NCBI GenBank assembly: GCA_030427885.1
Contig: JAUICM010000005.1
Span: forward strand, 62,001-126,000
Length of the DNA: 64,000 nt
Direction of reading: 5' to 3'
Source of the DNA: Rhodothermia bacterium
GTDB taxonomy: Bacteria > Bacteroidota > Rhodothermia > Balneolales > Balneolaceae
The translations under genes were made by a program, and so were the position numbers. The notes below the pieces were generated by a model. It saw only the letters and a program-made list of their open reading frames with translations, was not told the origin of the DNA and did no database searches. This document shows, one piece after another, positions 22,275 to 44,334 of this stretch. Position 1 is the stretch's first letter, and each line of letters starts with the position of its first letter.

Positions 22275-24044
22275 ATGACCTTTGAAGGCTGGACGGTAGT
22301 TGGCGTTATTCTGCTTTGCCTTAGTTTACTGATCACTACTCACTACTCAGTGGACATGATCCTACTGGCAGGAATGGCCTTTTTGTTGATAAGCGGGATC
22401 ATTACTCCTACCGAAGCTCTATCCGGATTTTCAAATGAGGGTATGCTAACTGTTGCTGCACTATATGTTGTAGCCGGAGCTTTGAAAGAAACGGGGGCGA
22501 TCCAGTATATTACTCAAAAGGTAATGGGCGATACAAAAACGGTCAGGACTGCTCAGGCAAGAATAATGGCTCCGGTTATGTTTATGAGTGCATTCATGAA
22601 TAATACTCCGATTGTTGCGTCCTTTATTCCGGCATTGGAACATTGGAGCCGTAAGACCAGGATCCCGATCTCAAAGATATTGATTCCACTAAGCTATGCA
22701 GCTATTCTGGGTGGAACCTGCACCCTTATTGGTACCAGTACAAACCTGATCCTGAACGGGCTTCTCATCGAAGAGGGCAGCACCAGAGCCCTGGGATTGT
22801 TTGAACCGGCCTGGGTGGGAGTACCAAGCGCCATTGCAGGGTTCATTTATTTATATCTTTTTGGGGATAAGCTGTTGCCTTCACGAGGCGAGGCGTTTGA
22901 AAGTTTTAAAGATCCCCGTGAATACACCATAGAAATGGTAGTGCCTCCCGGAAGTCCGCTTTCCGGTAAATCAGTTCAGGATGCCGGGCTTCGTCAGTTA
23001 CCTGGTCTGTTCCTGGTGGAGATCTACAGGAATGAACAAGTTATTCCAGCTGTGGCTCCAGATCAAAACTTATTGGAAAATGACCGGCTTATTTTTGCAG
23101 GTGTCGTTGATTCAATTGTAGATCTCCAAAACACTCAGGGATTGATTCCGGCAACAAATCAGGTTTTCAAGCTCGATGCACCCCGAAACGAGCGAATTTT
23201 GATCGAGGCTGTAGTTTCGACTTCGCACCCACTGAAAGGCAGAACTATCAAAGAAGGTGGGTTCCGGGATCGTTATAATGCTGTGGTACTTGCGGTATCA
23301 AGAAGTGGAGAACGATTAAAAGAGAAGATCGGTGATATTTCACTTAAAACAGGCGATACATTGTTATTGGAAGCCCATAAGGGATTTTTAAGAAGATACA
23401 GAAATTCCAATGATTACTATCTGATCAGTCCAATTGAGGGGGCAACACCGGCTAATTATGAGAAATCCGGTATTACATTGTTGATCTTGTTGGCTATGGT
23501 CATCCTCGCGGGTACAGGAATTCTAAGTATGCTGAAGGCAGCATTCCTTGCCGCCGGTGCGATGATACTGGTCAGGGCAATTCGATATAATGTTAGTATT
23601 GAGTCCATCGATTGGAGAGTTTTATTAGCCATTGCTTCATCACTTGGTATCGGGCATGCTCTCAGCTCAACCGGAGTAGCAGAATATTTAGCAACCAGCA
23701 TCATGAGCGTGGCAAAATCCGATCCTATTCTGGCATTAATTGTCACTTATCTTATTACCTGGATCCTGACAGAATTGATCACAAACAATGCAGCTGCAGT
23801 ATTGATATTCCCTATTGCACTTTCAATTGCACAATCTATAGGTGTAGATTTTATACCATTTGCAATCGTAATTATTATGGGTGCATCTGCCAGTTTTTCA
23901 ACTCCATTGGGCTATCAAACAAATCTCATGATTTATGGTCCCGGTGGGTACAGGTATTCTGATTACATCAGAATAGGGCTTCCATTAAATTTCATAGTAG
24001 GTTTAATTACTGTATCTTTAGTACCTCAACTTTGGAGTTTTTAA
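22275..24044 (+). CDS. SLC13/DASS-family permease with two RCK_C domains, probable sulfate importer
   Basis: A 589-residue membrane protein. Transmembrane segments fill residues 5-205 and 395-585. A soluble insert at about 215-375 carries two TrkA-C (RCK_C) modules (PPGSPLSGKSVQDAGLRQLPGLFLVEIYRN and TSHPLKGRTIKEGGFRDRYNAVVLAVSRSG). The FMNNTPIVASFIP and TNNAAAVLIFPIA stretches and GTCTLIGTSTNLIL are the paired DASS transporter motifs. Because cysQ, cysD and cysNC follow within 2 kb on the same strand, sulfate is the likely substrate. Starts a probable operon. Substrate call is by context. Confidence 0.85.
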   Translation: MTFEGWTVVGVILLCLSLLITTHYSVDMILLAGMAFLLISGIITPTEALSGFSNEGMLTVAALYVVAGALKETGAIQYITQKVMGDTKTVRTAQARIMAPVMFMSAFMNNTPIVASFIPALEHWSRKTRIPISKILIPLSYAAILGGTCTLIGTSTNLILNGLLIEEGSTRALGLFEPAWVGVPSAIAGFIYLYLFGDKLLPSRGEAFESFKDPREYTIEMVVPPGSPLSGKSVQDAGLRQLPGLFLVEIYRNEQVIPAVAPDQNLLENDRLIFAGVVDSIVDLQNTQGLIPATNQVFKLDAPRNERILIEAVVSTSHPLKGRTIKEGGFRDRYNAVVLAVSRSGERLKEKIGDISLKTGDTLLLEAHKGFLRRYRNSNDYYLISPIEGATPANYEKSGITLLILLAMVILAGTGILSMLKAAFLAAGAMILVRAIRYNVSIESIDWRVLLAIASSLGIGHALSSTGVAEYLATSIMSVAKSDPILALIVTYLITWILTELITNNAAAVLIFPIALSIAQSIGVDFIPFAIVIIMGASASFSTPLGYQTNLMIYGPGGYRYSDYIRIGLPLNFIVGLITVSLVPQLWSF

Positions 24045-24056
24045 TATATTTATTAG

Positions 24057-24830
24057 ATGGTAAAAGACATCATCAGGTTGGCCAGAGAGGCCGGGGAAAA
24101 AATACTTGAGTTTTATGATGAAAAGGTAGAAGTCACAACTAAAAAAGACGACTCACCCTTAACTAAAGCCGATCTGGCTGCTCATCATCATATTGTGGCT
24201 GGTTTAAAAGAATTAACACCAGAGATACCGATCATTTCAGAAGAGTCGGGAGTTCCGGATTATTCTGAAAGAAAAGAATGGAACAAATTTTGGATGGTTG
24301 ATCCACTTGATGGTACCAAGGAGTTCATCAAGAAGAATGGTGAGTTTACTGTTAATATTGCTCTTATTGAAGAGAGTGTTCCTGTAATGGGTGTTGTTTA
24401 TGTTCCAGCTACCGGAGTTGTGTATTATGGCGAACAAGGTGTTGGTACGTTTAAGAAAGATGAAGAAAGTAAAATAACTCAGCTCATCAATCAGGAATTC
24501 AAAAAACCAGGAAAAGCCCGTATTGTGGTAAGCAGATCACATGGAGATGATGCTACAAAAAAGAAATTAGAGAATATCGGGATTGAAGTAACTGAAGAGG
24601 TTCCATCAGGAAGTTCTTTAAAATTCTGCCTGGTAGCAGAAGGAAAAGCTGATATTTATCCAAGGCTTGGCCCGACTATGGAATGGGATACTGCAGCGGC
24701 AGATGCTGTGTACCGCTATTCAACTAAAGAAGGTGAAAAATATTCACCCTTGACTTACAATAAAGAAAATCTGTTAAATCCTTATTTTGTGATAGGTATT
24801 AACGAATATATAGACGCTGAATCATTGTAA
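24057..24830 (+). CDS. cysQ: 3'(2'),5'-bisphosphate nucleotidase CysQ
   Basis: A 257-residue inositol-monophosphatase-fold enzyme. Metal ligands are visible as SEES (61-64), DPLDGTKEF (82-90) and EWDTAAADAV (209-218), all intact. CysQ hydrolyses 3'-phosphoadenosine 5'-phosphate (PAP), the by-product left when sulfotransferases or PAPS reductase use PAPS, and so prevents its inhibition of those enzymes. It lies 12 bases after the permease and two bases before cysD, a tight operon. With five sulfotransferases in the polysaccharide locus downstream, PAP removal should matter. Confidence 0.95.
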   Translation: MVKDIIRLAREAGEKILEFYDEKVEVTTKKDDSPLTKADLAAHHHIVAGLKELTPEIPIISEESGVPDYSERKEWNKFWMVDPLDGTKEFIKKNGEFTVNIALIEESVPVMGVVYVPATGVVYYGEQGVGTFKKDEESKITQLINQEFKKPGKARIVVSRSHGDDATKKKLENIGIEVTEEVPSGSSLKFCLVAEGKADIYPRLGPTMEWDTAAADAVYRYSTKEGEKYSPLTYNKENLLNPYFVIGINEYIDAESL

Positions 24831-24831
24831 T

Positions 24832-25740
24832 ATGACTACATTAAGATCACATTCTCACCTGAAAGAGCTCGAAGACGAAGGAATTTACATCATGAGAGAA
24901 GTGGCCGCTCAGTTCGAACGGCCCGTTCTTCTTTTCTCTGGAGGAAAAGATTCCATCGTGATGTTTCATCTGGCCCGAAAGGCATTCCACCCGGGCAAAA
25001 TCCCATTTCCATTAATGCATGTAGATACAGGACATAACTTTCCGGAAGCAATTGAATTTCGGGATGGTCTGGTAGAGAAGTACGGGGTTGAGCTTATTGT
25101 AGGTAGTGTACAGGAATCTATTGATGAAGGAAGAGTTGAGGAAGAGACGGGCCCTGACGCGAGTCGTAATGCCTTACAAACGGTGACCTTGCTGGATACT
25201 TTAAAGAAGCATCAGGTTGATGCCGCATTGGGAGGTGGTCGCCGGGATGAGGAGAAAGCCCGTGCAAAAGAACGTTTCTTTTCACACCGTGATATTTTTG
25301 GTCAGTGGGATCCTAAAAACCAGCGTCCGGAATTATGGAATCTTTACAATGGCAGAAAAAAACCAGGTGAGAATTTCAGGGTTTTCCCGATAAGCAACTG
25401 GACAGAAATGGATGTGTGGCAGTACATCGCACAGGAAAATATTGAGATTCCGTCTATATATTTTGCTCACGAACGAAAAGTTTTTAACCGTCGCGGGGTT
25501 TGGTTGGCTGATACCGAATTCATCAATAAAATGGATGATGAAGAAGTGGTAACGAAAGTCGTGCGCTTCAGAACAATAGGGGATGCAACCTGTACCGGAG
25601 CAGTACTTTCTGATGCTTCAACGATGGAAGATATAATCCAGGAAGTAGCGTCAGCACGTGAAACGGAACGCGGTACCAGACACGATGACAAACGCAGCGA
25701 AACCGCTATGGAAGACCGTAAGAAACAAGGCTATTTCTAG
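24832..25740 (+). CDS. cysD: Sulfate adenylyltransferase subunit 2 (CysD)
   Basis: A 302-residue PAPS-reductase-fold ATP pyrophosphatase. The PP-loop SGGKDS is at 36-41; other family stretches are HVDTGHNFPE, GGGRRDEEKARAKER and RVFPISNWTEMDVWQYI. With CysN it forms ATP sulfurylase, making adenylyl sulfate (APS) from ATP and sulfate. Length is normal for bacterial CysD. Normally cysN follows at once; here a four-helix-bundle gene is inserted between them and the gap begins with a hairpin that includes the stop codon. Confidence 0.96.
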   Translation: MTTLRSHSHLKELEDEGIYIMREVAAQFERPVLLFSGGKDSIVMFHLARKAFHPGKIPFPLMHVDTGHNFPEAIEFRDGLVEKYGVELIVGSVQESIDEGRVEEETGPDASRNALQTVTLLDTLKKHQVDAALGGGRRDEEKARAKERFFSHRDIFGQWDPKNQRPELWNLYNGRKKPGENFRVFPISNWTEMDVWQYIAQENIEIPSIYFAHERKVFNRRGVWLADTEFINKMDDEEVVTKVVRFRTIGDATCTGAVLSDASTMEDIIQEVASARETERGTRHDDKRSETAMEDRKKQGYF

Positions 25741-25838: not shown

Positions 25839-26195
25839 ATGAAGTATAATGGACCGATTTACGAAAAATCATTCGAATTTGCACTAATGACATTAGAACT
25901 ACAAAAGAGTTTAATGCTTTTGAAAGAGTTTGAAATTGGAAGTCAGATTCTAAGAGCCGGAACGAGTATTGGAGCAAATGTCAATGAAGCAGGAGCTGCA
26001 GTATCTCGGAAAGATTTCGGAAATAAAATGTCAATTGCATTAAAAGAAGCCCGGGAATCATGGTTCTGGCTTCGGCTATTAAAAGCAACAAATACAATTC
26101 AAATAGACGTAGATCATAACATTGATCGATGTACTGAACTGGTTAAGATCCTTACATCAATAGTGAAGACTACTCAAGCAAGCATCAAAAAATGA
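25839..26195 (+). CDS. Four-helix-bundle protein (23S rRNA intervening-sequence protein-like)
   Basis: A 118-residue all-helical protein of the family first found in intervening sequences of 23S rRNA genes. Signature parts are FEFALMTLELQKSLMLL, GSQILRAGTSIGANVNEAGAAVSRKDFGNKMSIALKEARESWFWLRLL. No enzyme residues. It has a good ribosome site (GGAG, seven bases before ATG). Its stop overlaps the ATG of cysN in ATGA, so translation is coupled. Placement between the two ATP-sulfurylase subunits, flanked by inverted repeats, suggests an inserted element. Function of free-standing homologues is unknown; nucleic-acid binding has been proposed for relatives (Avd). Confidence 0.88.
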   Translation: MKYNGPIYEKSFEFALMTLELQKSLMLLKEFEIGSQILRAGTSIGANVNEAGAAVSRKDFGNKMSIALKEARESWFWLRLLKATNTIQIDVDHNIDRCTELVKILTSIVKTTQASIKK

Positions 26196-28120
26196 GCAAC
26201 GAAAACGAACTCAACACTCAAAACTCATCACTAAAAACTGGCGAAGCCGACAACGCATATTTAAACATGGACATGCTCCGTTTTACTACGGCAGGATCCG
26301 TAGATGATGGGAAAAGTACACTCATTGGTAGACTTCTGTACGATTCAAAATCCATCTTTGCTGACCAGATGGAAGCAATTGAGAAATCAAGTAAAAGCAG
26401 CGGCGAAGAAGAAGTAAACCTGGCGTTACTAACCGATGGACTTAAAGCTGAGCGCGAACAAAAGATCACCATCGATGTTGCTTACCGGTATTTTGCTACT
26501 CCGAAAAGAAAATTCATTATAGCGGATACACCTGGTCATACTCAATATACCAGAAATATGGTGACCGGCGCATCAACAGCTGATCTGGCTATTATTTTGG
26601 TGGATGCATCTAAAGGTATCCTGACTCAATCCCGGCGTCATGCGTTTATTTCGTCGCTGCTTCGTATTCCACATTTGGTGGTAGCAGTAAATAAGATGGA
26701 TTTAGTGGATTATGACGAGGCTACCTTTAACGAGATCGTTGCAGATTTCAAGGAGTTCGCTCATAAACTGGATGTATCGGATATTACTTTCATTCCTATT
26801 TCAGCATTAAAAGGAGATAATGTTGTTGATAAAGGGGAGAAAATGGATTGGTACAAAGGTTCCACACTTCTTCATCATCTCGAAAATGTAAAGGTTGATG
26901 CTGCTGATAATGTACTGGATTTCCGTTTTCCTGTTCAATATGTGATACGCCCGGGAATGAATTTCCGTGGATTCTCAGGACAGGTTGCATCAGGGCATGT
27001 GCGTCCCGGTGATGAGATTAAAGTACTCCCTTCAGGTTTGACTTCGAAGGTAAAAGAAATTGTGACCATGGACGGAAATCTGGATGTAGCATATCCCAGA
27101 GATTCCATAGCTATTACCATAGAAGACGAGATCGATATCAGTCGTGGTGACATGATTGTTCGTAAAGATAATGTTCCAACTATCAGAAATGAGTTTGAGT
27201 CATTTTTATGCTGGATGAATGAAAAACCACTGGATCTGAACAAGCAATATATTCTGCAACACACCTCAAATCAGGTTCAGGTATTTATTGATGAGATTTT
27301 CTACCGGATCAATGTGGATACCCTCGGTCGGGAAGACACATACGAGTTAAAGTTGAATGAGATCGGAAGAGTAAAACTCAAGACCAGCAAGAGTATATTT
27401 TTCGATCCATACCAGATCAACCAAAGAACGGGTAGTTTCATAATTATCGATCCAACTACGAACGTTACAGTTGGTGCTGGTATGATCCGTGCAGGATCAA
27501 CAGTATCTAAAAAAGTTGATGATTCTGTAACTGAGAAGTTGGTTTCTCCGAATGTAACATGGGAACCATGGAATATTCCTAGAGAAACAAGGGAAGAAAA
27601 AAATGGCCATAAGGCACAGGTTTTATGGTTTACAGGTATTTCAGGTGCGGGTAAATCCACCATTGCAAAAGAACTTGAAAAGAAATTATGGTCTGAAGGC
27701 AAACAAACAATGCTGCTGGACGGTGATCAGGTACGTCATGGCTTAAATGGCGATCTTGGATTTAGTCCAAAAGACAGAAAAGAGAATATTCGCAGAGTAG
27801 GACATCTTTCGAGATTATTCTTTGAACACGGAAATATTGTTCTTTGCACCTTCGTATCCCCTTATGCTGAAGACCGTGAATTTGTGAAATCACTTTTCCC
27901 GGAAGGATCTTTTAAAGAGGTCTTTGTGACCTGTTCACCTGAAACAGCAAAAGAAAGAGACCCTAAAGGACTTTATGCAAAAGCTGAAAAAGGAGAAATC
28001 TCAAACCTGACGGGTTTTGATGCAGATCATGAAGCACCTGCCGATGCATTAGTCATCAATACGGATAAACTTTCGTTAGAAGATGCCGTTCAAAAAGTGA
28101 TAGAAGTTTTGAATGCTTAG
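26192..28120 (+). CDS. cysN: Bifunctional CysN-CysC: sulfate adenylyltransferase subunit 1 / adenylylsulfate kinase
   Basis: A 642-residue fusion. The CysN GTPase part has GSVDDGKS (35-42), DTPGH (112-116) and NKMD (167-170), followed by EF-Tu-like beta domains to about 445. From about 472 an APS kinase begins, with P-loop GISGAGKST at 482-490 and LDGDQVRHGLNGDLGFS...RKENIRR. Together with CysD it turns sulfate into APS and then PAPS. The first 20 residues precede the conserved YLNMDMLRF core and are partly encoded by a copy of the ACTCAAAAC repeat (residues 7-16). The kinase fusion favours PAPS output, which fits the sulfotransferases of the next locus. Confidence 0.95.
   Translation: MSNENELNTQNSSLKTGEADNAYLNMDMLRFTTAGSVDDGKSTLIGRLLYDSKSIFADQMEAIEKSSKSSGEEEVNLALLTDGLKAEREQKITIDVAYRYFATPKRKFIIADTPGHTQYTRNMVTGASTADLAIILVDASKGILTQSRRHAFISSLLRIPHLVVAVNKMDLVDYDEATFNEIVADFKEFAHKLDVSDITFIPISALKGDNVVDKGEKMDWYKGSTLLHHLENVKVDAADNVLDFRFPVQYVIRPGMNFRGFSGQVASGHVRPGDEIKVLPSGLTSKVKEIVTMDGNLDVAYPRDSIAITIEDEIDISRGDMIVRKDNVPTIRNEFESFLCWMNEKPLDLNKQYILQHTSNQVQVFIDEIFYRINVDTLGREDTYELKLNEIGRVKLKTSKSIFFDPYQINQRTGSFIIIDPTTNVTVGAGMIRAGSTVSKKVDDSVTEKLVSPNVTWEPWNIPRETREEKNGHKAQVLWFTGISGAGKSTIAKELEKKLWSEGKQTMLLDGDQVRHGLNGDLGFSPKDRKENIRRVGHLSRLFFEHGNIVLCTFVSPYAEDREFVKSLFPEGSFKEVFVTCSPETAKERDPKGLYAKAEKGEISNLTGFDADHEAPADALVINTDKLSLEDAVQKVIEVLNA
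26209..26239 (+). repeat. Right inverted arm, lying inside the cysN reading frame
   Basis: The bases from ACTCAACACTCAAAACTC onward to CACTAAAAACT match the same repeat found in inverted form at 25757-25781 and again at 28176-28196 and 28782-28812. It encodes residues 6-16 of CysN. Confidence 0.65.
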
Positions 28121-28821: not shown

Positions 28822-31167
28822 TTAGCTTTTTTCCTCCTGATAATAGTCACTATACGTACGCTTGTAATAGGCGTAGTTAGTATAATAATCTGTGCTACGT
28901 TTTGGATCGAAAGCATTTAAAACTACCCCGAGGATATCAGCATTCAAGTGGTGTAAACCGTCAAGAGTAAAGCTTAGCTCTTTTTTTGTAGTTACATTAA
29001 ACCGCGAAACTACAATCATACCGTCAACAAGCCTTAATAATGATGCTGAATCAGAAATTATACCATATGGAGCGGTATCCAATATTACATGGTCATAGCG
29101 CTCAGCTAAACTGTCAATTAATTGTTTAAGTCTCTTACTATCAAGAACCGTAGCAGGTTCAGGAGTTTTTTTACCGACAGTTAGTAAATCAACATTAGGA
29201 GCTATTGTGTTTTTAACAATGTCTTTGATGTTAACGGTCTCGAATAGAGAATCAGTTAAGCCTGGCTCTTTGTTTTCTCCAAAGATTTTATGTTGAGTAG
29301 GTCTTCTGAGATCAAGGTCAATAATCAGCACACTTTTTTCTGCTTCAGAAAAAGTAACTGCTAAATTTGCAGCTACAGTACTTTTTCCTTCCCCCTTAGT
29401 AGCACTGGTAACCATAATAACCTTATAATCTTTGTCAGGATTAGCATATATGACATTAATCCTTAACCGACGATAAGCCTCTGAAATGGGAGAAATATGA
29501 TCTAGAAAAGTTATTAATTGATTTGAAACAGATCGGTTTTCAAGGTGCTGTCGACCAGCCGGATCAAGTCCGTTGAGGATTTTGAAATCTGGAATATTAC
29601 CAAGGTTAGGTAGTGTAAACACTTTGAGATCTTCGGAGGAAGTAATCTTATCGTTGAAAAATTCTTTAATAAACACAAGCCCGATGCTAATAAAAAGCCC
29701 AAGAGCAATTCCAATGAGTACAATAATCTTTTTCTTTGGACTAACAGGGAAGTTCGGGATCATCGCGTAGTCTAACGGTCTACCCATACCAAACTGTGTT
29801 TTCTCCCAAAGACTCATTTCAGCAAGCTGGTTTGCCACAAGAAGGAAAAGTTGTTCGTTGATCTTAACATTTCTTTCTAATCTGGCTAATTGAATGATCT
29901 CATCAGGAAGATTTTCAAACTCATTATTGAGTTCATCTGTATAATTATTTACAATTTCCAATTGAGTATCGTACTGGATCTTCTCAATTTTCAAATCAAC
30001 CAGTTTACTTGAAATTTGAGAAATTTTACTAATTACAGTTTCCTCTCTGTTAGTCATAAAACTGAGAAAGAAATCAGAATTACTACTAACTAACTTACCT
30101 GTTAACTCCCGGATCTGATCTTTAATGAGTTGTATCTCAGCGTTAATTTTTTTGATCTCAGGGCTCTCGTCAGTTAGAGTTGGGTTTTTAACCTTTAGAT
30201 TAAGTTTATTTGTTTCCGCTTCAGCCAACATGAACTGAGACCGTTCAATAATCTGAGATAAAGCAGTAGAAAATTGTTCAGAGAGCTCAGGCTTTATTTC
30301 ATTGAGTTGGTTTTCATATTGTTCTATTGAAGCATTAATAGCAACGAGATTAACTTCAATAGTCTGTTTCTGAGAAGCCAGACTGCTAAGTTTCGATATC
30401 AGTTCATTTGATTGAGGAGTAACAGCAACAAGATTAGTCTCATTCATAAAAAATTTGAGTGAATCTTCAGTTTGAAGCAATTCTTTCTCAATTCTACCCT
30501 TCTCTTCCTGAAGGAAGGTTAGCGCGTTCTTTGCCATTGTTCGATTTTGGTCTGTTGAAAGCTTTGAATACGAATCCATTGTAAGGTTAACAACTAATGC
30601 TGCCTCACTCGGAGAAGGACTTTCAAAATCAATTGCAACAACGTCCGAAGTTGGGTCCAACCTGGAAAAAGAAATATTCTTTCTATATCTACTGGCCACC
30701 GTATCAATGCCTACAGTAGAGGAGTCGTCAGGATAAGAGCGCCATAAAATTGGGAACTTAGTTCCCTGGTCATCAAATTCAAGGTCCTTAATATTGTTAG
30801 CAAGATCATAGCTTTGCTGAACGGAATTCAGGATTTGAAGTTCATTTGATATTGAACTCCCAACGCCGATTCCATAAGTAGTGGTTAATAAGCTTGATAA
30901 ATCTGATCCTGCATAGGAATAACGGTTCTGATGTTGAGATATCATAAGAGTTCCACGGCTTTTATAAATCGGTATAAGTGACAAAGAATATACAACTGAT
31001 GCTACCCCGGCTATGAGCACACAAATAATGATAATCCACTTATTAAGAAGTAAAAAATTCAGAATTTTGATTAAATCAATTTCTGAAGCAGAGTTGTCAG
31101 CATTATTCTCGTTCTGAATAAAAGAATTGTTTGACGAAGAAATACCATTGGAGCCGTTCAGGTGCAT
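28822..31167 (-). CDS. wzc: Polysaccharide co-polymerase with tyrosine autokinase (Wzc-like)
   Basis: A 781-residue inner-membrane protein. Order: short cytosolic start, TM1 (about 39-60), periplasmic Wzz domain with long coiled-coil helices and a GNVR-like region, TM2 (about 480-500), then a BY-kinase domain. Walker A GEGKST is at 592-597, Walker A' VLIIDLDLRRP at 613-623, Walker B HVILDTAP at 693-700, and the tail has eight tyrosines (761-776) for autophosphorylation. It controls chain length and export of capsule or exopolysaccharide. It is on the opposite strand from the rest of the locus, facing the repeat-rich spacer. All kinase motifs are intact. Confidence 0.94.
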   Translation of the reverse strand: MHLNGSNGISSSNNSFIQNENNADNSASEIDLIKILNFLLLNKWIIIICVLIAGVASVVYSLSLIPIYKSRGTLMISQHQNRYSYAGSDLSSLLTTTYGIGVGSSISNELQILNSVQQSYDLANNIKDLEFDDQGTKFPILWRSYPDDSSTVGIDTVASRYRKNISFSRLDPTSDVVAIDFESPSPSEAALVVNLTMDSYSKLSTDQNRTMAKNALTFLQEEKGRIEKELLQTEDSLKFFMNETNLVAVTPQSNELISKLSSLASQKQTIEVNLVAINASIEQYENQLNEIKPELSEQFSTALSQIIERSQFMLAEAETNKLNLKVKNPTLTDESPEIKKINAEIQLIKDQIRELTGKLVSSNSDFFLSFMTNREETVISKISQISSKLVDLKIEKIQYDTQLEIVNNYTDELNNEFENLPDEIIQLARLERNVKINEQLFLLVANQLAEMSLWEKTQFGMGRPLDYAMIPNFPVSPKKKIIVLIGIALGLFISIGLVFIKEFFNDKITSSEDLKVFTLPNLGNIPDFKILNGLDPAGRQHLENRSVSNQLITFLDHISPISEAYRRLRINVIYANPDKDYKVIMVTSATKGEGKSTVAANLAVTFSEAEKSVLIIDLDLRRPTQHKIFGENKEPGLTDSLFETVNIKDIVKNTIAPNVDLLTVGKKTPEPATVLDSKRLKQLIDSLAERYDHVILDTAPYGIISDSASLLRLVDGMIVVSRFNVTTKKELSFTLDGLHHLNADILGVVLNAFDPKRSTDYYTNYAYYKRTYSDYYQEEKS

Positions 31168-35357: not shown

Positions 35358-36159
35358 TACTATAATCTTCATTCATATCCCTAAGACAGGAGGGACTTCA
35401 TTACTAACTTTTCTGGACTATAATTTTCGAAAGGGAAAAGTTTTCTCAATCGCCAAAACCAGCAGGCAGATTTTTGACGAGAATGTGGTACTTATTCCTT
35501 TTCAGGAGAGACAAAAACGGGTAAAGCAATTCTTCTCAGAATTACCTCAGAGTAAAAAGAAAAAGTACAAGATCATATACGGTCATATGGAATATGGCTG
35601 GCATGATCTGGTTGAAAATTATCGATATGTTACATTTTTGAGAGAACCAGTAAGCAGAGTGGTTTCTTTATATCATTACATAATGAGGAAGACAAATATG
35701 GAGCTCAGTAAACAGATAAAAGAAGAAGGAATATCTGTAGAGGAATTTGTTAGCCAAAATTTACATGAAGAAGCATGTAACGGAATAATGAAAAGAATAT
35801 GTGGAGAAGAAGATTTTGACCCTAATGATCTTGAGAAGAGCTTCGAAATAGCAAAAGAAAGGTTACTCTCGTTTGCATATATAGGGTTCATGGATGATTT
35901 TGATAATTCACTTATTAGGTTTGGAGAGATGGCGGATGCAAAATATCTCTATTATCAAAGAAGTAATACAGCTAAACCGTCTTCAAAAAATATTTCTTAT
36001 AATAGAAACATAATTGCTGAATACAATAAGTATGATATTAGATTATACGAATTGGCAAAAAAGAAATTTTCGGGTATTGATTGGCAAACAAATAAAAAAG
36101 TTAACAAGAGTAATTCGATTAAATTTTACCTACAGATCAGGAATAAATTCGGGATATAA
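35350..36159 (+). CDS. Sulfotransferase 2 (HIPKTGGT type, carbohydrate sulfotransferase)
   Basis: A 269-residue enzyme of the Sulfotransfer_2 family, which includes heparan 2-O- and uronyl-type sulfotransferases. Visible sites are IHIPKTGGTSL (8-18, PAPS loop), YGHMEYG (His79) and VTFLREPVSRVVSLYHY (Arg98, Ser106). Members of this group act on polysaccharide or glycan chains. The start overlaps the previous gene by eight bases. All key residues are intact. Confidence 0.9.
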   Translation: MGDTIIFIHIPKTGGTSLLTFLDYNFRKGKVFSIAKTSRQIFDENVVLIPFQERQKRVKQFFSELPQSKKKKYKIIYGHMEYGWHDLVENYRYVTFLREPVSRVVSLYHYIMRKTNMELSKQIKEEGISVEEFVSQNLHEEACNGIMKRICGEEDFDPNDLEKSFEIAKERLLSFAYIGFMDDFDNSLIRFGEMADAKYLYYQRSNTAKPSSKNISYNRNIIAEYNKYDIRLYELAKKKFSGIDWQTNKKVNKSNSIKFYLQIRNKFGI

Positions 36160-36166: not shown

Positions 36167-37030
36167 ATGTTTTTAAAGAAAACCAAAACTATTTATCAGA
36201 AAGCAAAAAGAGAATTTGAACTCCGATTTGGCAGTGAACGTACCTCTTCGGGAAGGATTCTCCAATCTTTAGATAAAAAAAGAAAGTCGGTACTTTTTTT
36301 TACCACCCATAAATGTGCATCTTCATTTATAAATATTTTGCTTGAAAAAATCGTAATCAGTTCTGATTACGATAATATAAACTATACAAAATCAATTAGA
36401 AGATTGGGGGACAAAACCTCAATAATTGATACGCATAAATATCTGAAAGAAAATTATCAATATCTGTTTGTTCCCTATGGGGAGATTTATGCTCCTCTAC
36501 GTAAACCTGTGATATTTCCTGGCTCTGAGGAATACCGACACATATTTTTTTTAAGGGATCCCCGTGATATCCTTGTATCAGGATTTCATTCTTTTGGAAG
36601 AACTCATCCTGTTCCAATCAATAAAGAGAAGAAAGAAACATTTTTGCAGAGAAGAAAAGAAATTAATGAAATGGGTATTGATAAATTTACCCTAAAAGAA
36701 GCTGTGGAGTGGGTTAAACCTATTTATGCTGAGTATCGATTGATGAGATCCACAGTAAACGACTCGATTTATCTTAAGTATGATCTTTTTAAAGAAGACC
36801 CTAGAGAATTTATTGAAAGAATTAATGCTTATCTAGACTTAGGAATTAATGACACTTTAGCGGAAAGCTTGGCTAATCTGGCTGAACCTGTTCAGAAAGA
36901 AATAAATGATTCTGCTCACAAGCGTTCGGGAAATAGTAACCAGTTTAAGAAGGAACTTAAACCAGAAACAATTCTAGAGCTTAATGACATTTTGAGAGAG
37001 GAGCTAGAGTACTGGGAATTTTCATTATGA
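36167..37030 (+). CDS. Sulfotransferase 3 (divergent THKCASSF loop)
   Basis: A 287-residue sulfotransferase-fold protein. The PAPS loop reads TTHKCASSFI (46-55), lacking the usual P-K-[ST]-G but keeping the Lys and following Ser; the 3'-phosphate site HIFFLRDPRDILVSGFHSFGRTHP (Arg130, Ser138) is strong. Similar HKCAS-loop enzymes are found in bacterial glycan clusters. The acceptor is unknown. Seven bases from the previous gene and 30 from the next, so part of the same operon. Confidence 0.82.
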   Translation: MFLKKTKTIYQKAKREFELRFGSERTSSGRILQSLDKKRKSVLFFTTHKCASSFINILLEKIVISSDYDNINYTKSIRRLGDKTSIIDTHKYLKENYQYLFVPYGEIYAPLRKPVIFPGSEEYRHIFFLRDPRDILVSGFHSFGRTHPVPINKEKKETFLQRRKEINEMGIDKFTLKEAVEWVKPIYAEYRLMRSTVNDSIYLKYDLFKEDPREFIERINAYLDLGINDTLAESLANLAEPVQKEINDSAHKRSGNSNQFKKELKPETILELNDILREELEYWEFSL

Positions 37031-37060
37031 AGAAGTTCCAGTTAATTACTTTTGAAGCAT

Positions 37061-38176
37061 ATGAGTGATTTGTTTAACGGTTTTTTCTTTCCCCATGACA
37101 AAAAGGAAGATCATTTTAAGGCTTTGGATGGGTTAAGAGGAATTGCAGTACTTTTTGTGCTACTTTCTCATTCAAGTAATCTTGGTATGTACTTCCATGA
37201 GTTCATAAATTTTTCCAAGATTGGCAAGGTTGGAGTTTATCTCTTTTTTGTTTTATCAGCATATCTTCTGGACCGTCAGATCGCACTTGCCTTGCTTGAT
37301 AAAAAGGCCTCAAAATATTATTGGGGGAACTATTTAGTAAGGCGGTTTTTGAGGATATATCCCTTGTTTGTGTTAGCTCTTTTAATGCACTTGGCGATAT
37401 CAAAGCTCTTATTTACAACAGTAATTACTGATATTGGTGGTGTTCTAATGCACATATTCCTATTAGAAGGGGAAAGCATTTTCTGGTCAATCCCAGTCGA
37501 ATTCAAATATTATTTCATATCACCTGTTCTTATGTTAATCATCAACAGGTTTTTAAAATGGAATCTTAAAAATATTAGCATCTGGATTATATCTATTTCA
37601 ATTATCTCGGCAATTCTGGTGAAAGTAATTGATCTGGATAATAACTCAACATTCAGGTTTCTACCCATATTTCTTGTCGGTACTTTATTGTCCGTAGGGG
37701 AATTAATTATTGATCGTACAAAAGAAAATAAGATGATCTTTAAAAAAAGCTTTTTTGAACTGTCTGGATGGATAGCCGTATTCCTGATCTTAATTTCAAT
37801 ACCATACTATTTCAAAACAGTTTTCGGATTTAGTTTTAATACTAATGACTCAATATTTTATATCCCATATTCGATCTGTTGGGGGCTGGTTTTACTTGGA
37901 GTTAAACATGGAAATTGGAAATTAAAGAGCTTGCTTGAACTTAAAATGTTTCGATTTGTTGGAACAATAAGCTTCAGTGTTTATCTCTTTCATTTGCCGA
38001 TTTTAGAGTTTGTTCATCAATCAGATTCTATTCCTGATGGTTATAAAATTTATTTATTTCTCTTTGTTACCATGGTTTTTTCATCAGTAACATATTTACT
38101 TATAGAGAGACCATTATCGAAGATCAGACTGAGCATGTTTTTGAATGAGAAGACACTGCAAAGACTCAAAAATTAA
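37061..38176 (+). CDS. Membrane acyltransferase, acyltransferase-3 family
   Basis: I choose the ATG at 37061 (371 residues); a TTG nine bases upstream is possible. A polytopic protein opening with FKALDGLRGIAVLFVLLSHSS, the acyltransferase-3 signature with its essential His, then about ten hydrophobic helices and RFVGTISFSVYLFHLPILEF near the end, another family landmark. Such enzymes O-acetylate or acylate sugars of O-antigen and capsule. It lies between a sulfotransferase and the radical-SAM/pyruvyltransferase gene, so it probably adds an acyl group to the repeat unit. Confidence 0.88.
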   Translation: MSDLFNGFFFPHDKKEDHFKALDGLRGIAVLFVLLSHSSNLGMYFHEFINFSKIGKVGVYLFFVLSAYLLDRQIALALLDKKASKYYWGNYLVRRFLRIYPLFVLALLMHLAISKLLFTTVITDIGGVLMHIFLLEGESIFWSIPVEFKYYFISPVLMLIINRFLKWNLKNISIWIISISIISAILVKVIDLDNNSTFRFLPIFLVGTLLSVGELIIDRTKENKMIFKKSFFELSGWIAVFLILISIPYYFKTVFGFSFNTNDSIFYIPYSICWGLVLLGVKHGNWKLKSLLELKMFRFVGTISFSVYLFHLPILEFVHQSDSIPDGYKIYLFLFVTMVFSSVTYLLIERPLSKIRLSMFLNEKTLQRLKN

Positions 38177-38206: not shown

Positions 38207-40492
38207 ATGGACCTTTTCCTAGCCGGTAAAAAATTCTTACAAACAAGCCCTTTTCCAGACCCAGTATACCCAGAAGTAATACAATTTCCTGTGAATGATA
38301 TTTGTAACAGCAAATGTCAGATGTGTAACATTTGGAAACAAAAAAAGGAATTTGAGCTAAGTCTTGACCAAATAGAGGAACTGTATTCTCAACCCCTTTT
38401 TAAGAATGTTGAAACCGTAGGTCTAAATGGGGGAGAACCCACTCTTAGAAAAGATTTGCCTCAAATCGTAGAGCGGTTAAAAAAGTCATTACCTAGTCTG
38501 AAAAACATTTCACTCATTACCAATAGTATTATTCACAAAAGAGTGATTGCTTACATAGAAGAGATGGCAAAAATATGTCTGGATAACGGGTTGCACTTTG
38601 ATGTGATGTGTTCTTTGGATGGTGTGGGTGATGTGCACGATAGAGTAAGGGGAAGAAGTGGTAACTTTGAATCCGTGGAAAAAGTTATTGATGCTGCAAA
38701 AAAAATAAAAGGGGTAAGCAGCCTCAGAGTGGGCTGTACTATTATAAAAGAGAATGTGTTTGATGTAGAAGAAGTCCTTTTTTGGGCTATCAAAAATAAG
38801 GTGTATGCCAGATTCAGAATTGGTATTCCTCATCAACGCCTATACAAAGGAAACGATGCTGATGTGTTTGGTTTTAATGACGAAGAAAGATTCCATCTGA
38901 TAAATTTTTTAGAGGTCATTAATAAATACTATGAGAAAACATACTCTAGACGATTGTTTTATACTAGTCTTAAAAATCAATTATTGTATAATGCCCCGAG
39001 AAATGTAGGATGTAGCTGGAAGTACAGGGGAGCAACAGTGACCTCGAAAGGAGAGCTGGCGTACTGTGCAGTAGAAAGTGATATTCTTGGGAATTTATTA
39101 GAACAGGATGGAGAAGAACTTTATTGGGGGAATGCAGATCATCTAAAACAGATTCAAAAAGAAAAGTGTGCAAATTGTAATCATGACTACCAGGGATTAT
39201 TAACAAAAAAACAGTTTGTACTTAATTTAGTAGATGGAGCAATGCGAAGATATGCTCCTGTTAGTAAATCAATTAAATACATTAAAAAATTTAGAAATAG
39301 AAATAGTGCAAAAAGAGTAGCAGCTAAGAAAATTTATACTTCTGCAGAGAATGCCGAAAATCTGGATCAGATTCTGATTTGTGGATGGTACGGCACAGAA
39401 ACACTGGGCGACCAGGCAATTTTAGCTCAGTTAGTTCAGAATGTCAGAAAGCTTTATCCAAACCATCTCATACATCTATCAAGCCTGGATAAAACAGTTA
39501 GTAACTATACTGATTTAAAGAATGAGGATTGTAAGGTTGACGAAATACTTTCACTTTCTGAAGCAGAAAAAAGGATTGCAGCAAAAGCGTATTCTCATTT
39601 GATTTTTGGGGGTGGGCCAATAATGTCTACCGTTAGCAAGATTAATGAGATGTCATATTTCTTTAGATTGGCCAAGCATAATGGAACAAAGACAATTATA
39701 TATGGTGCTGGGGTAGGTCCGGTTGTGGAAAATGATAATCTCCCAAACCTGATTACTTTAATCGAAAACTCTGATCATATAGTAAACCGAGATGCTAAAT
39801 CTGCAGGTCTTAGCGTAAGATATGCATCAATGACTGAAGTAGAACATGCATGTGATCCTGCAATGATTTGGTTTAGAGATAAATACAGGTCAGACTTAGA
39901 AAAATCACGTTTAAATAAGGTTACTTTTGCTCTTCGAGAAATACCATTTTCACAGTACCATAGCGAGAAGGATGAAAACTTAAAAGTCCAAATAAATAAA
40001 AAATTTGAGCATGAAGTTCGGGATCTTATACAGAAGATTAAAGGTGAAGATGGCTCGGAAGTTGAACTTTTCTGTATGAATAAATTAGCAATTGGAGATG
40101 ATGACAGGCTTTTTTATGCAAAGCTCCTAAATCTTGATAGACAAAATAACGAAGGAATAAATATGGATATTCGTCACGGTAGTGTTAATGAATATATAAA
40201 GCACTTTTATAATTCAAAGGTAGCGGTTTGTATGCGTTATCACTCCGTATGTCTCGCTCTTGCAACAAAAACCCCATTTATCGCTATTGATTATACTAAT
40301 GGAGGAAAAACTAAGAATCTACTTAACGACCTCGGATTAATGGATCTGTATATAGATGTGAATGAGTTTACTAGTAAAAAAGCTGCTAAGCTTATGAAGG
40401 ACGCACCAATTATTCTTGAAGGTAAAAAAGAAGTTATAGATAGCTATCTTGATTCCTCAGAATTGAAATATGAGCAGCTTTTAAGAAAATGA
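38207..40492 (+). CDS. Fused radical SAM / polysaccharide pyruvyl transferase
   Basis: A 761-residue two-domain protein. Domain 1 (about 25-335) is a radical SAM enzyme: CNSKCQMC (Cys33, Cys37, Cys40), GGEP at 75-78, and a SPASM-like set of cysteines (Cys269, Cys287, Cys321, Cys324). Domain 2 (about 385-755) is a polysaccharide pyruvyl transferase: GWYGTETLGDQAIL (393-406), GGGP (468-471) and CMRYHS near 690. Pyruvyl transferases add ketal-linked pyruvate from PEP to sugars. What the radical SAM half does is unknown; carbohydrate epimerisation or dehydrogenation is a guess. Both halves keep their active motifs. Confidence 0.88.
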   Translation: MDLFLAGKKFLQTSPFPDPVYPEVIQFPVNDICNSKCQMCNIWKQKKEFELSLDQIEELYSQPLFKNVETVGLNGGEPTLRKDLPQIVERLKKSLPSLKNISLITNSIIHKRVIAYIEEMAKICLDNGLHFDVMCSLDGVGDVHDRVRGRSGNFESVEKVIDAAKKIKGVSSLRVGCTIIKENVFDVEEVLFWAIKNKVYARFRIGIPHQRLYKGNDADVFGFNDEERFHLINFLEVINKYYEKTYSRRLFYTSLKNQLLYNAPRNVGCSWKYRGATVTSKGELAYCAVESDILGNLLEQDGEELYWGNADHLKQIQKEKCANCNHDYQGLLTKKQFVLNLVDGAMRRYAPVSKSIKYIKKFRNRNSAKRVAAKKIYTSAENAENLDQILICGWYGTETLGDQAILAQLVQNVRKLYPNHLIHLSSLDKTVSNYTDLKNEDCKVDEILSLSEAEKRIAAKAYSHLIFGGGPIMSTVSKINEMSYFFRLAKHNGTKTIIYGAGVGPVVENDNLPNLITLIENSDHIVNRDAKSAGLSVRYASMTEVEHACDPAMIWFRDKYRSDLEKSRLNKVTFALREIPFSQYHSEKDENLKVQINKKFEHEVRDLIQKIKGEDGSEVELFCMNKLAIGDDDRLFYAKLLNLDRQNNEGINMDIRHGSVNEYIKHFYNSKVAVCMRYHSVCLALATKTPFIAIDYTNGGKTKNLLNDLGLMDLYIDVNEFTSKKAAKLMKDAPIILEGKKEVIDSYLDSSELKYEQLLRK

Positions 40493-40496: not shown

Positions 40497-41717
40497 ATGA
40501 AAATTCTCATTTTAAACGAAGCTGATTACGGCGGTGGCGCAGCAATTGCAGCTTTAAGGGTATATGAAGCGTTATCGGCTAAATCAGACCATGAGGTGTA
40601 TTTTAAAGCAAAACGTACAAGGAATTCCAAAAACGGAATAAACGTGAGGACTTGGGCAGACTTTCTTAATAAGCTGTTCAAGAAAACTGAAAGAGAATTA
40701 CTGAATCAGATTCGTACCGATAAGCACGATCTATTAAATATTGATTTAGGAAATTTATTTGACCTGACAGGAGATTTAAAGAGAGAGATAGATAAAATTA
40801 ATCCTGATATAATTAATCTTCACTGGATTAATAATGGATTCATATCTCTTCGGTTGATCAAAAAACTGGCAAATGATTATAAGATACTCTGGACACTTCA
40901 TGACATGTGGCCAATGTTAGGCATTCAGCATTATGATAGAGGCGAATTTGAAACTATTAAACGAGGGAGTATTTTTCGCTTGTTAGATAATTGGGCTATC
41001 AAACAAAAGGGTGAAATTTTTCGAAACGAGAATATCCATTTCGGGTGTATAAGTAATTGGATGAAAGATGAACTACTAAAAAGATGGGATATTCCGGAGA
41101 GCAGAATTCATATAACTCCCAATACTTTAAGTAATAAGATCACTGAGACTTCTATGGAGAGTAATTCTGAAGAAAAGGAGGGTTTGTTTACAATAATTCT
41201 TTCTTCAAAGGCTTCTGATACTGATATGCGAAAAGGTTTTGATTTGCTAAAGAACGTTATTTCTAGAATTGAAAGTGAAAATATTCAGCTTATTGTTTTA
41301 GGGTGTAAGCAGAAAAAGGATTACAAGATAGGTAAGGTCAAAGTAACTGAATATGAAAACACAAATAATGAAGACGAGATCATAGGTTATTATCAGGAAT
41401 CAGATCTGCATATTTGTTGTTCAAGAATGGATAATTATCCAAATACGGTTCTTGAAGCGAATGGTCTTTCTATTCCCACAATAGCATTTAATGTAGGTGG
41501 TCTGAAAGATATGATTGATCATGGAAAAACAGGTTTTCTGGTATCTCCTTTCGATACAGAAGCGATGGCCAATCTTATAGATAAGATTTCTAAGGATCTT
41601 CCGATGAGAGAAGAGTTGAAAAAGAATCTGAAAGCCCGTAAAAAATTCAACTCTCAGGAAAATATATCGGGCATATATTTGTCCGTATTTAATGAATTAC
41701 TTCTCTCTAATTTTTAG
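40497..41717 (+). CDS. Glycosyltransferase family 4
   Basis: A 406-residue GT-B enzyme. The N-terminal glycine-rich stretch NEADYGGGAAIAALRVYEAL (7-26), the LHDMWPMLG segment and the C-terminal GT4 donor site SDLHICCSRMDNYPNTVLEANGLSIPTIAFNVGGLKDMI, with the Glu of the PNTVLEA motif, are clear. It transfers a hexose or deoxyhexose from a nucleotide sugar on the cytosolic face of the membrane. Donor and linkage cannot be predicted. Four bases after the radical-SAM gene. Confidence 0.88.
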   Translation: MKILILNEADYGGGAAIAALRVYEALSAKSDHEVYFKAKRTRNSKNGINVRTWADFLNKLFKKTERELLNQIRTDKHDLLNIDLGNLFDLTGDLKREIDKINPDIINLHWINNGFISLRLIKKLANDYKILWTLHDMWPMLGIQHYDRGEFETIKRGSIFRLLDNWAIKQKGEIFRNENIHFGCISNWMKDELLKRWDIPESRIHITPNTLSNKITETSMESNSEEKEGLFTIILSSKASDTDMRKGFDLLKNVISRIESENIQLIVLGCKQKKDYKIGKVKVTEYENTNNEDEIIGYYQESDLHICCSRMDNYPNTVLEANGLSIPTIAFNVGGLKDMIDHGKTGFLVSPFDTEAMANLIDKISKDLPMREELKKNLKARKKFNSQENISGIYLSVFNELLLSNF

Positions 41718-41720: not shown

Positions 41721-42383
41721 GTGAAATCCAATCTGATGTTTGAAAGATATAAATCTAAAACACTGCTTATTTCGAAAGAAAAAAAGTTCATTTTTATTCA
41801 CAACTATAAAGTGGCGGGGACAAGCGTTCGCAAGATTCTTTCTGATTACCAAAGTGAGAGTTATAGATTTCTTTCGAATCTACTTTGGTTTTCTATCAAA
41901 GATATAAGAGACAAACATAAACTTACCTTATCAAAACATGCTGACTACCGGAAGGTGGAAGCTGTTTTTGGTACCAGCCTTAATGAATTTAAATTATTTG
42001 GGTTTGTTAGAAACCCCTGGGACTGGGAGGTGTCAAAGTATGAATATATGGTGCAGAACAAGGAACATTTTCAACACAAGCTTGCAGCATCTTTTCAGTC
42101 TTTCGATGAGTATTTAGCCTGGAGAACTACAGAATTCAGAACCCAAAGCTCCTTTTTCAAAGACTCAGAAGGTAAGCTCTTTTCAGGAAATATTTTAAAA
42201 ATCGAAAATAAGAATGAAGTCAACGCTTATTTAAGTTCCCTTGTGGGTAAAAGTATAAGTCTTCCCGAAAGTAATACAACCTCAAGAAAACCATATCAGG
42301 AATATTACGATACAAAGGATATGATTGAGATAATTGAAAAGTTATATCAGGAAGACATTGAAAAGTTTTCTTATTCCTTTTAG
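41721..42383 (+). CDS. Sulfotransferase 4 (HNYKVAGT type)
   Basis: A 220-residue Sulfotransfer_2-type protein. PAPS loop HNYKVAGTSV (27-36), SKHADY (His73) and 3'-phosphate site LFGFVRNPWDWEVSKYEYM (Arg97, Ser105). Many bacterial relatives carry HIPKxAGT here. The frame opens with GTG at 41721; the ATG at 41736 is another possible start. It lies between two glycosyltransferase genes, which fits an action on the growing repeat unit. Short for the family but both substrate sites are complete. Confidence 0.85.
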   Translation: MKSNLMFERYKSKTLLISKEKKFIFIHNYKVAGTSVRKILSDYQSESYRFLSNLLWFSIKDIRDKHKLTLSKHADYRKVEAVFGTSLNEFKLFGFVRNPWDWEVSKYEYMVQNKEHFQHKLAASFQSFDEYLAWRTTEFRTQSSFFKDSEGKLFSGNILKIENKNEVNAYLSSLVGKSISLPESNTTSRKPYQEYYDTKDMIEIIEKLYQEDIEKFSYSF

Positions 42384-42401: not shown

Positions 42402-43358
42402 ATGAAAGAAAAATTTTATGTTTATATACCAAAACAGATGGGGCATTACTTATACTACCTTAAAGTGCTCGAAGCTTATGGGATCAGCTTTGAGGTAGTT
42501 GAGACAAATGAGCTTGGAATAGTACAATATCTCCGGCTGATTTATAAAAATAGACACCGCAAACATATACTGTTGAGTGCGGAATCAATTTTAAAGAAGA
42601 AACCCTGGATTCTTTTTTTATTAAATCTGTTTCGATGTGATTACAATCAAATTTTATATTATGTAACTCACTTTGAACGATCTAGGGGTACTAGTGTAAT
42701 TTTCAGACAATATTTCAAATTTTGCAGTGGAAAATCTCGGATCAAATCCTTTGTGATAACTCCGGAGGTGTCATCTAAGATTACCAATGACTATGGCCTT
42801 GTTGTCACTACCGACCCGATAACGGAGGTAAGTGTTGAAGAAATGAAATCATTTCCTTATCAAGGGATTAACTATCTGTTACTGATTGGGAGTCATGATA
42901 AAAGAAAAGGAACATATGATTTTTTAAAAAGATTGAAAGAAACAGATTTGGAAATAATAGTTGCTGGTAAAGTTTATGACGAAAGACTAAAGGAAATAGA
43001 TACCTCTACTTTTGGCTTCAAGGTTCGCGTTATAGATCAGTTTCTGGAAGAAGACCTTATGTTTAATCTCATTCAGAAGGCCAAATGTATTGTTGTTCCA
43101 TATATAAATTGGGATGGATCAAGTGGGATTTTAGGGCAGTCTCTTTTATTTGATAAAGTAATTATGGGAACTGATAACGGAACAATAGGACGTATTTTAA
43201 AAGAGTATGAAAAATCTATTCTTATTGATCAGACTGATGAGGAGATTTCCATTACTGATTCAGAGATAAATGAACTCGAGCAGGTTAGTTCAAACGCGAA
43301 ACAGTTATTGAATAAATACTATAACCCCGAAATATTTATAAAGGATATAACAAGCTAA
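42402..43358 (+). CDS. GT-B glycosyltransferase (GT4-like)
   Basis: A 318-residue protein. The C-terminal half has the GT-B donor domain: NYLLLIGSHDKRKGTYDFLKRL...IIVAGKV...LIQKAKCIVVPYINWDGSSGILGQSLLFDKVIMGTDNGTIGRIL, with the Glu-x7-Glu region weak. The N-terminal half is less typical (MGHYLYYLKVLEAYGISFEVVE). It is shorter than most GT4 enzymes. Substrate unknown. It is in the same run as sulfotransferases 4 and 5. Confidence 0.78.
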   Translation: MKEKFYVYIPKQMGHYLYYLKVLEAYGISFEVVETNELGIVQYLRLIYKNRHRKHILLSAESILKKKPWILFLLNLFRCDYNQILYYVTHFERSRGTSVIFRQYFKFCSGKSRIKSFVITPEVSSKITNDYGLVVTTDPITEVSVEEMKSFPYQGINYLLLIGSHDKRKGTYDFLKRLKETDLEIIVAGKVYDERLKEIDTSTFGFKVRVIDQFLEEDLMFNLIQKAKCIVVPYINWDGSSGILGQSLLFDKVIMGTDNGTIGRILKEYEKSILIDQTDEEISITDSEINELEQVSSNAKQLLNKYYNPEIFIKDITS

Positions 43359-43449
43359 AAGAGAGATTAAATTGTACCTTTCAGGGCAATTCAGATTAGT
43401 GAAGATTGAAACTATAGGAAGTGAAAACAGGCGATTTTGAGAATTTAAA

Positions 43450-44334
43450 ATGAAAACGTTCATTCATGTAGGATTACATAAAACTGCATCAACTTATCTC
43501 CAAACGGAGGTCTTCCCTAGACTGAAATCTTGTTATTATGTATCAAGACCTACTACTCAGTTTAACTATGAACTTGCATCGCTTCAGTATCTGGATGATA
43601 CCCTGTATAAAGAAGAAAATGTTATCGAATACTTCTCAGGGCTTAGGAAAAAAGCGGGAGGTAAAAATCTGTTTCTTTCAGACGAAGCCTTTTCTGGGAA
43701 GGCAATAAAGTATGGGTATATTAACAGATCTATGATTGCAGATCGTTTGTCGCGTATATGTAACGATGCTGAAATAATAATCGTCTTGCGTAATCCAATC
43801 GATATTTTGATTTCCTTATACAATCAGTATGTAAAGATTGGGGGAACAAACCACTACAAGCGGTATTTTAAAAAAATTGATAAAACAGAATTTTTTGATG
43901 AAAAGAATTATCAGGAAAATTGGGACACGAGTAAACTTCCAATAAATACGGTTTCCGATTCTATCCTGATTGAATATTTTAATTACTCTAAATTGATTGA
44001 GCTCTATGAAACAAGATTTAAAAAAGTTCATGTTCTGTTTCTGGAAAAATTCAGTGAGGAGAATTACCTGGCTTCTCAGCTAGAAAGAATTTTTTCAGAA
44101 TCATTAGAAATACCTTCAAACAAAAAGAAAATCAATCAATCAATACCTAATGGCTCGCTCGCGTTGTATGCGAAGCTGAATAGATTACTTAATGTTTTTT
44201 TCGATAACCGGGCTGGAATTCGAAAAAAACTTTATCGTTTTGATATTCTTGGTAGAAATGATGAGTTGAGGAAATTTCTGGAAGATAACTTTAAGGATTT
44301 ACTCGAATACAAAGTGGATAAAATTGAATATTAA
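43450..44334 (+). CDS. Sulfotransferase 5 (HKTAST type)
   Basis: A 294-residue sulfotransferase. PAPS loop VGLHKTASTYLQ (7-18) and 3'-phosphate site IIIVLRNPIDILISLYNQYVK (Arg114, Ser122); LSDEAFSG (77-83) lies between, as in related bacterial glycan sulfotransferases. All substrate-binding residues appear intact. A 91-base gap precedes it, one of the few breaks in the run, and its end overlaps the polymerase gene by 11 bases. The acceptor is presumably the polysaccharide. Confidence 0.86.
   Translation: MKTFIHVGLHKTASTYLQTEVFPRLKSCYYVSRPTTQFNYELASLQYLDDTLYKEENVIEYFSGLRKKAGGKNLFLSDEAFSGKAIKYGYINRSMIADRLSRICNDAEIIIVLRNPIDILISLYNQYVKIGGTNHYKRYFKKIDKTEFFDEKNYQENWDTSKLPINTVSDSILIEYFNYSKLIELYETRFKKVHVLFLEKFSEENYLASQLERIFSESLEIPSNKKKINQSIPNGSLALYAKLNRLLNVFFDNRAGIRKKLYRFDILGRNDELRKFLEDNFKDLLEYKVDKIEY

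Follow-up and report, generated by a model that had tools for sequence, protein, structure and literature searches.

The window, a 64,000-nucleotide stretch of DNA from a Rhodothermia bacterium of the family Balneolaceae (GCA_030427885.1, contig JAUICM010000005.1, positions 62,001 to 126,000), contains an operon for the synthesis of 3'-phosphoadenosine 5'-phosphosulfate (PAPS) at 22275–28120, with a polysaccharide locus rich in sulfotransferase genes beside it. The principal genes of the operon are arranged head-to-tail in the order permease, cysQ, cysD and cysN-cysC:

22275..24044, plus strand: CitMHS/DASS-type permease carrying two TrkA_C domains (Pfam CitMHS, 3.6e-68; TrkA_C, 4.3e-20)
24057..24830, plus strand: cysQ, 3'(2'),5'-bisphosphate nucleotidase, for removal of 3'-phosphoadenosine 5'-phosphate (PAP) (NCBIfam TIGR01331, 298.7 bits, cut-off 228.8)
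24832..25740, plus strand: cysD, sulfate adenylyltransferase small subunit (NCBIfam CysD, 462 bits, over the cut-off)
25839..26195, plus strand: 23S_rRNA_IVP four-helix protein of 118 amino acids, between cysD and cysNC (PF05635, 1.4e-20)
26192..28120, plus strand: cysN-cysC fusion, sulfate adenylyltransferase GTPase subunit plus adenosine 5'-phosphosulfate (APS) kinase (NF004035, 900.8 bits, cut-off 715; APS_kinase, 2.3e-56)

The initial annotation had named the permease, cysQ, cysD and cysN-cysC and placed the last end at 28120, and its coordinates are correct. Pfam agrees with these calls, as does NCBIfam for the three cys genes; the annotation had overlooked the 23S_rRNA_IVP gene. The permease is likely to be responsible for sulfate uptake, a substrate which we infer and which the family itself does not give. 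A search of the whole genome (4.15 Mb, 98.7% complete) with PF01507 revealed one cysD, that of the operon, and one cysH.

The polysaccharide locus includes the following genes:

28822..31167, minus strand: Wzz/GNVR/tyrosine-kinase polysaccharide co-polymerase, convergent with cysNC (Pfam GNVR, Wzz, AAA_31)
31285..31989, plus strand: metallophosphoesterase at the start of the locus, conserved there in relatives (PF00149, 6.4e-18)
33194..34603, plus strand: flippase of the Wzx type (Polysacc_synt_3, 4.9e-60)
34578..35357, plus strand: sulfotransferase 1 (Sulfotransfer_1, 6e-30, over the curated cut-off)
35350..36159, plus strand: sulfotransferase 2 (Sulfotransfer_2, 5.8e-8, over the cut-off)
36167..37030, plus strand: sulfotransferase 3 (Sulfotransfer_1, 5e-8, over the cut-off)
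37052..38176, plus strand: membrane acyltransferase (Acyl_transf_3, 6.7e-24)
38207..40492, plus strand: two-domain protein, radical SAM plus polysaccharide pyruvyl transferase, encoded by a single frame of 761 amino acids (Radical_SAM, 1.4e-18; PS_pyruv_trans, 2.2e-29)
40497..41717, plus strand: glycosyltransferase family 4 (Glycos_transf_1, 2.2e-21)
41721..42383, plus strand: sulfotransferase 4 (Sulfotransfer_2, 5.2e-7, over the cut-off)
42402..43358, plus strand: probable glycosyltransferase (Glyco_trans_1_4, 7.8e-5, below the cut-off)
43450..44334, plus strand: probable sulfotransferase 5 (Sulfotransfer_1, 6e-4, 19.7 of 22 bits and thus below the cut-off)
44324..45424, plus strand: Wzy-like polymerase (Wzy_C, 4.6e-7, just below the cut-off)
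53414..54130, plus strand: initiating sugar transferase (Bac_transf, 3.1e-59)

Five sulfotransferase-type proteins had been proposed at 34578–44334, interleaved with flippase, acyl-, pyruvyl and glycosyltransferase genes, and Pfam matches were obtained at each of these positions; four of the five exceed the Pfam cut-off. On visual inspection the fifth has the two PAPS-site motifs (HKTAST, close to the N-terminus, and LRNPID), and its phmmer matches are to L068:6657-7622 (1e-8) and to the sulfotransferase L068:970-1869 (4e-6) in the locus of a relative; a single-sequence structure prediction for this protein (predicted local distance difference test score, 35) was not used. Sulfotransferase 3 matches, by tblastn, annotated sulfotransferases on two marine plasmids. 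Overlapping gene ends, which had also been claimed, measure 26 bp between the flippase and sulfotransferase 1 and 8 bp between sulfotransferases 1 and 2. The flippase gene starts 5 kb after the end of cysN-cysC. Since the minus-strand Wzz/kinase gene stands between them, the polysaccharide genes adjoin the cysDNC operon but do not share a transcript with it. Polysaccharide genes continue beyond the window to about C10:134 kb; among them are another initiating sugar transferase, another polymerase-like gene and, just outside the window, a sixth sulfotransferase (C10:127352-128134), so that two polymers are possible.

We consider it likely that the PAPS operon and the adjacent sulfotransferase locus constitute a sulfate-esterification system, the sulfate pool of which is shared with a sulfite-producing branch through CysH. 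Sulfate would enter through the permease, CysD-CysN would convert it to APS, and CysC would phosphorylate APS to PAPS. At least four, and probably five, sulfotransferases of the Wzx/Wzy-type locus, with the sixth beyond the window, would then sulfate sugar residues in one surface polysaccharide or two, the PAP that they leave being removed by CysQ. In a parallel branch the CysH encoded on another contig would turn APS (or PAPS) into sulfite, which would most likely be directed by way of cysteate to sulfonolipids, through a cysteate fatty-acyltransferase, and not to cysteine. CysQ also clears PAP arising from other sources, such as acyl-carrier-protein activation.

The gene content resembles that of characterized systems. 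Vibrio sp. KMM 8419 carries cysNDC and sulfotransferases in a capsular cluster the polymer of which is proven to be sulfated, an association called a hallmark of such clusters (PMC11641403). Both of its elements are present here, PAPS genes lying beside a polysaccharide cluster and several sulfotransferases lying among its glycosyltransferases, and the locus thus appears to be a sulfated-polysaccharide cluster of known type in a member of the Balneolaceae. In the Vibrio strain, however, the cysDNC of the cluster is a second copy and an ATP-binding cassette (ABC) transporter carries out export, whereas in the window the sole cysD lies in an operon of its own and the export genes are of the flippase type. 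In Vibrio vulnificus, cysDNC is likewise tied to a surface polymer, the brp exopolysaccharide, and is regulated separately from cysHIJ; unlike the present genome, that species has the full assimilatory pathway, and PAPS is there interpreted as a signal (PMC6113621).

The ester sulfate on the polymer and the substrate of each sulfotransferase are assigned putatively, as these are broad families in which the acceptor cannot be read from sequence. Moreover, the closest solved structures to sulfotransferase 1 are cytosolic small-molecule sulfotransferases (from 2.9e-14, phmmer). These proteins might accordingly act mainly on lipids, small molecules or proteins, leaving the polysaccharide with little or no sulfate. 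We regard this as improbable, given that all five are embedded in a set of flippase, polymerase, glycosyltransferase and acyltransferase genes and that the same gene setting accompanies the proven sulfated polymer of the Vibrio cluster (PMC11641403).

Conservation was investigated across 92 genomes of the family, 66 of which formed a "good" subset, and the operons of 20 relatives were read (21 including the window). Permease, cysQ, cysD and cysN occur together in all 20. None of the operons read lacks APS kinase: it is fused to cysN except in four genomes (L078, L084, L086 and L087), which have a free-standing cysC between cysQ and cysD and an unfused cysN. The possibility that the free-standing gene was a second APS kinase providing extra PAPS capacity was rejected, as cysN in those operons lacks the fused cysC. 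Six of the 21 operons (the window, L070, L075, L086, L087 and L088) have a 23S_rRNA_IVP-type gene inserted among cysQ, cysD and cysN, and the junction that it occupies varies. In many relatives the operon is followed by the same Wzz, phosphoesterase and 179-amino-acid protein that open the polysaccharide locus of the window; several genomes of genus g4 have different genes there, among them, as read from the sequences, an apparent glycine betaine-type ABC transporter.

Of the 44 family genomes that possess both genes, at least 13 have, by the positions of the Pfam matches, a sulfotransferase no more than 31 kb from cysD, against 2.6 expected at random (P about 3e-7), and these genomes span at least seven genera; within 15 kb the count is at least nine against 1.3 expected, both distance limits having been picked after the data were seen. 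The excess indicates that the cysD-sulfotransferase neighbourhood is conserved, and together with the constancy of the operon it bears out the proposal in the initial annotation that the genes for making the donor, clearing PAP and transferring sulfate share one neighbourhood. Sulfotransfer_1 matches were detected in 56 of the 92 genomes and co-occur with cysD (Fisher p 3e-4, good genomes). The co-occurrence persists among good genomes without sulfite reductase (24/7/4/13, Fisher p 6e-4).

The window contains no cysH, cysI or sir gene, as had been noted. The genome-wide search which had been set beforehand as a check located the single cysH on another contig (C5:298380-299054), yet PF01077 (NIR_SIR) gave no sulfite reductase match in this 98.7%-complete genome, the same search being positive in 11 of 14 control genomes; the pathway is thus not assimilatory, and the refuting condition named in the initial annotation receives a mixed answer. 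Activation genes and CysH are common to this genome and to assimilatory sulfate reduction (cysDNC-cysH-cysI), the difference being the sulfite reductase. Since CysH is present and sulfite reductase is without a match, sulfite would be made and apparently not taken to cysteine by the sulfite reductase route. The view that the operon is merely the first half of an ordinary assimilatory pathway, accidentally placed beside a polysaccharide locus, draws on the existence of that distant cysH and on the fact that family members with sir mostly have a separate cysH within about 2 kb of it. We consider it very improbable: sulfite reductase was detected in only 21 of the 92 family genomes and is without a match in 48 of the 66 good ones, the proximity of operon and sulfotransferases exceeds chance, and 11 good genomes retain cysD without sir or a cysH of either kind. 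In those 11 the operon can therefore only supply APS and PAPS for transfer.

The two kinds of cysH emerge from the PAPS_reduct matches, which by our reading fall into three groups: cysD, a longer cysH mostly near sir, and a shorter cysH. The shorter form occurs in 29 genomes, 20 of them without sir, and is accompanied by cysD in every one (29/29). Of the 20 loci read, 18 have it at the tig-clpP-clpX-cutA site, and the remaining two genes are paralogues inside polysaccharide loci. The CysH of the present genome has 224 amino acids and, in sequence and alignments, the CC, CxxC and ECGLH motifs of the iron-sulfur type. It matches solved PAPS reductases as well as APS reductases and exceeds the NCBIfam cut-off for phosphoadenylyl-sulfate reductase, with the APS- and PAPS-specific NCBIfam models both below their cut-offs. 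Enzymes with CC/CxxC cluster cysteines are mostly APS reductases, some taking both APS and PAPS, and the cysteine motif suggests that this CysH uses APS. Should it do so, only the PAPS branch, through CysC, is reserved for sulfation.

The initial annotation had raised the possibility of dedicated sulfation. In its strict form this would have the operon serve polysaccharide sulfation exclusively, the distant cysH being a relic or acting on other substrates. In keeping with it are the conserved neighbourhood, the retention of APS kinase and CysQ in every operon read, and the usual preference of CC/CxxC-type enzymes for APS, which would leave PAPS to the sulfotransferases. Against this, the cysH is intact, lies at a conserved site and is never found without cysD, and its product therefore probably shares the APS pool of the operon; in addition, a sulfonolipid acyltransferase is encoded. 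Exclusive use is in our estimation unlikely, with cysH on another contig and a sulfonolipid sink likely; the PAPS half of the proposal holds if CysH takes APS. A sulfate pool divided between esterification and the CysH branch is the reading we prefer, and PAPS is probably not reserved for sulfation alone.

The sulfonolipid (capnine) pathway is known from Alistipes and other Bacteroidota (PMC9304779, PMC11211663), though the word "sulfite" is absent from the main text of both papers. The product of L103, on contig C8, is a close relative of SulA: this cysteate C-fatty acyltransferase scores 466 bits to 28EH and 436 to SulA 7U7H, against 219 to serine palmitoyltransferase, and retains the lysine aligned with Lys281' of SulA (PMC9304779). 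The true serine palmitoyltransferase is a separate gene, L101. As a cysteate fatty-acyltransferase is encoded, sulfite probably feeds sulfonolipids through cysteate, and not cysteine. In contrast to the described pathway, cysteate synthase is represented here by a candidate only, L107; a second protein, L108, was ruled out as threonine-synthase-like. A ComA-type phosphosulfolactate synthase is also encoded (G000 C5:405470-406180); it occurs in 87 of the 92 family genomes, even where CysH is absent. Neither ComA nor the cysteate acyltransferase served as a marker for genomes with the short cysH, both being near-universal and hence unable to discriminate.

Several points weigh against the proposed system. 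The co-occurrence and proximity statistics ignore shared descent, and Sat-type ATP sulfurylase (PF01747) was outside the scope of the searches. Ester sulfate is a prediction from gene content, and the acceptors of the sulfotransferases could be lipids or small molecules. On the sulfite side, CapA is the best NCBIfam model for L107 at 471 of 600 bits, below its cut-off, and cystathionine beta-synthase fits nearly as well (460 bits). The cysteate acyltransferase is present in 90 of the 92 family genomes, with or without cysH; alone it therefore does not explain cysH, and other sources of sulfite or cysteate must exist.

The locus offers a concrete candidate for a sulfated polymer, open to experimental test, in a group for which our literature search found none described: it returned no paper that names Balneolaceae together with sulfotransferase, in agreement with the earlier remark that such polymers are poorly described in this group. 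It also illustrates a PAPS operon and sulfotransferases that stay together across genera, in a lineage that activates sulfate and can make sulfite without a detectable sulfite reductase, so that esters and sulfonates, and not cysteine, are the expected destinations of its activated sulfate.

Two relatives possess an extra, distinct CysH (cysHp) inside polysaccharide loci, within L061:3504-5122, 13 kb from cysDNC, and within L068:7665-9233 (= L123; genome G016). A GTDB scan with these two proteins gave 17 loci including the starting ones, in Bacteroidota, Gammaproteobacteria and Balneolaceae (further loci among L112-L127). Every one of the 17 cysHp genes is directly followed, on its own strand, by a gene for an extended short-chain dehydrogenase/reductase (SDR) of one family, 36–48% identical to the first; the two frames overlap by 4–37 bp in eight loci and are separated by at most 103 bp in the others. 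The predicted fold of the SDR is that of UDP-sugar epimerases. Its identification as SqdB was unsupported by sequence and fold searches, both of which gave ordinary UDP-sugar epimerases.

In four of the cysHp loci a gene for an enzyme that uses sulfite, SqdB or ComA, is present as well. UDP-sulfoquinovose synthase (Agl3/SQD1) forms a sulfonated sugar in a sulfite-dependent manner (PMC4388408), and SQD1-type genes lie in polysaccharide loci a few genes downstream of the pair at L127:11458-12609 and L124:8625-9776 (match to SQD1, 413 and 464 bits; NCBIfam model, about 450 bits against a cut-off of 575). Such genes were not seen in the window, whereas in L124 and L127 a dedicated CysH is nearby. 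ComA and ATP-grasp genes adjoin cysHp in loci with sulfotransferases (L068:8583-11736, L126:5580-10626), and L126 further encodes an XcbC-like lyase, a relative of the phosphosulfolactate phosphatase XcbC (415 of 575 bits), and an aspartate-oxidase-like flavoprotein. This gene content suggests that a sulfonated three-carbon acid may be attached to the polysaccharide.

The cysHp-SDR pair may thus represent an in-locus sulfite-making branch, the sulfite being used by SqdB, to give UDP-sulfoquinovose, or by ComA, to give phosphosulfolactate with ATP-grasp attaching the product, for the sulfonation of surface polysaccharides; we judge the chances of this to be evenly balanced. If true, it would be a route for placing sulfonates on bacterial surface sugars. 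One literature search on sulfonated capsular polysaccharides and enzymes of this kind found no pertinent paper. Nine of the 17 source genomes, several of which are incomplete, gave no sulfite reductase match, and most of the other cysHp loci are not obviously polysaccharide loci. The genome of the window has the ordinary cysH only, with no SDR beside it; in the relative L061 the pair adjoins the same cysDNC-polysaccharide site. In the gammaproteobacterial locus L121:2305-10800, cysD-like, cysN-cysC, cysHp, SDR and Wzz-like genes stand in a row on one strand.

Two further observations concern the surroundings of the sulfotransferases. Among 245 genomes of the class, the radical SAM-pyruvyl transferase fusion has one other two-domain relative (G177, 41% identity, residues 13-730). 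An exosortase gene is located just past the polysaccharide locus, at G000 C10:136475-137005 (L006:10475-11005).

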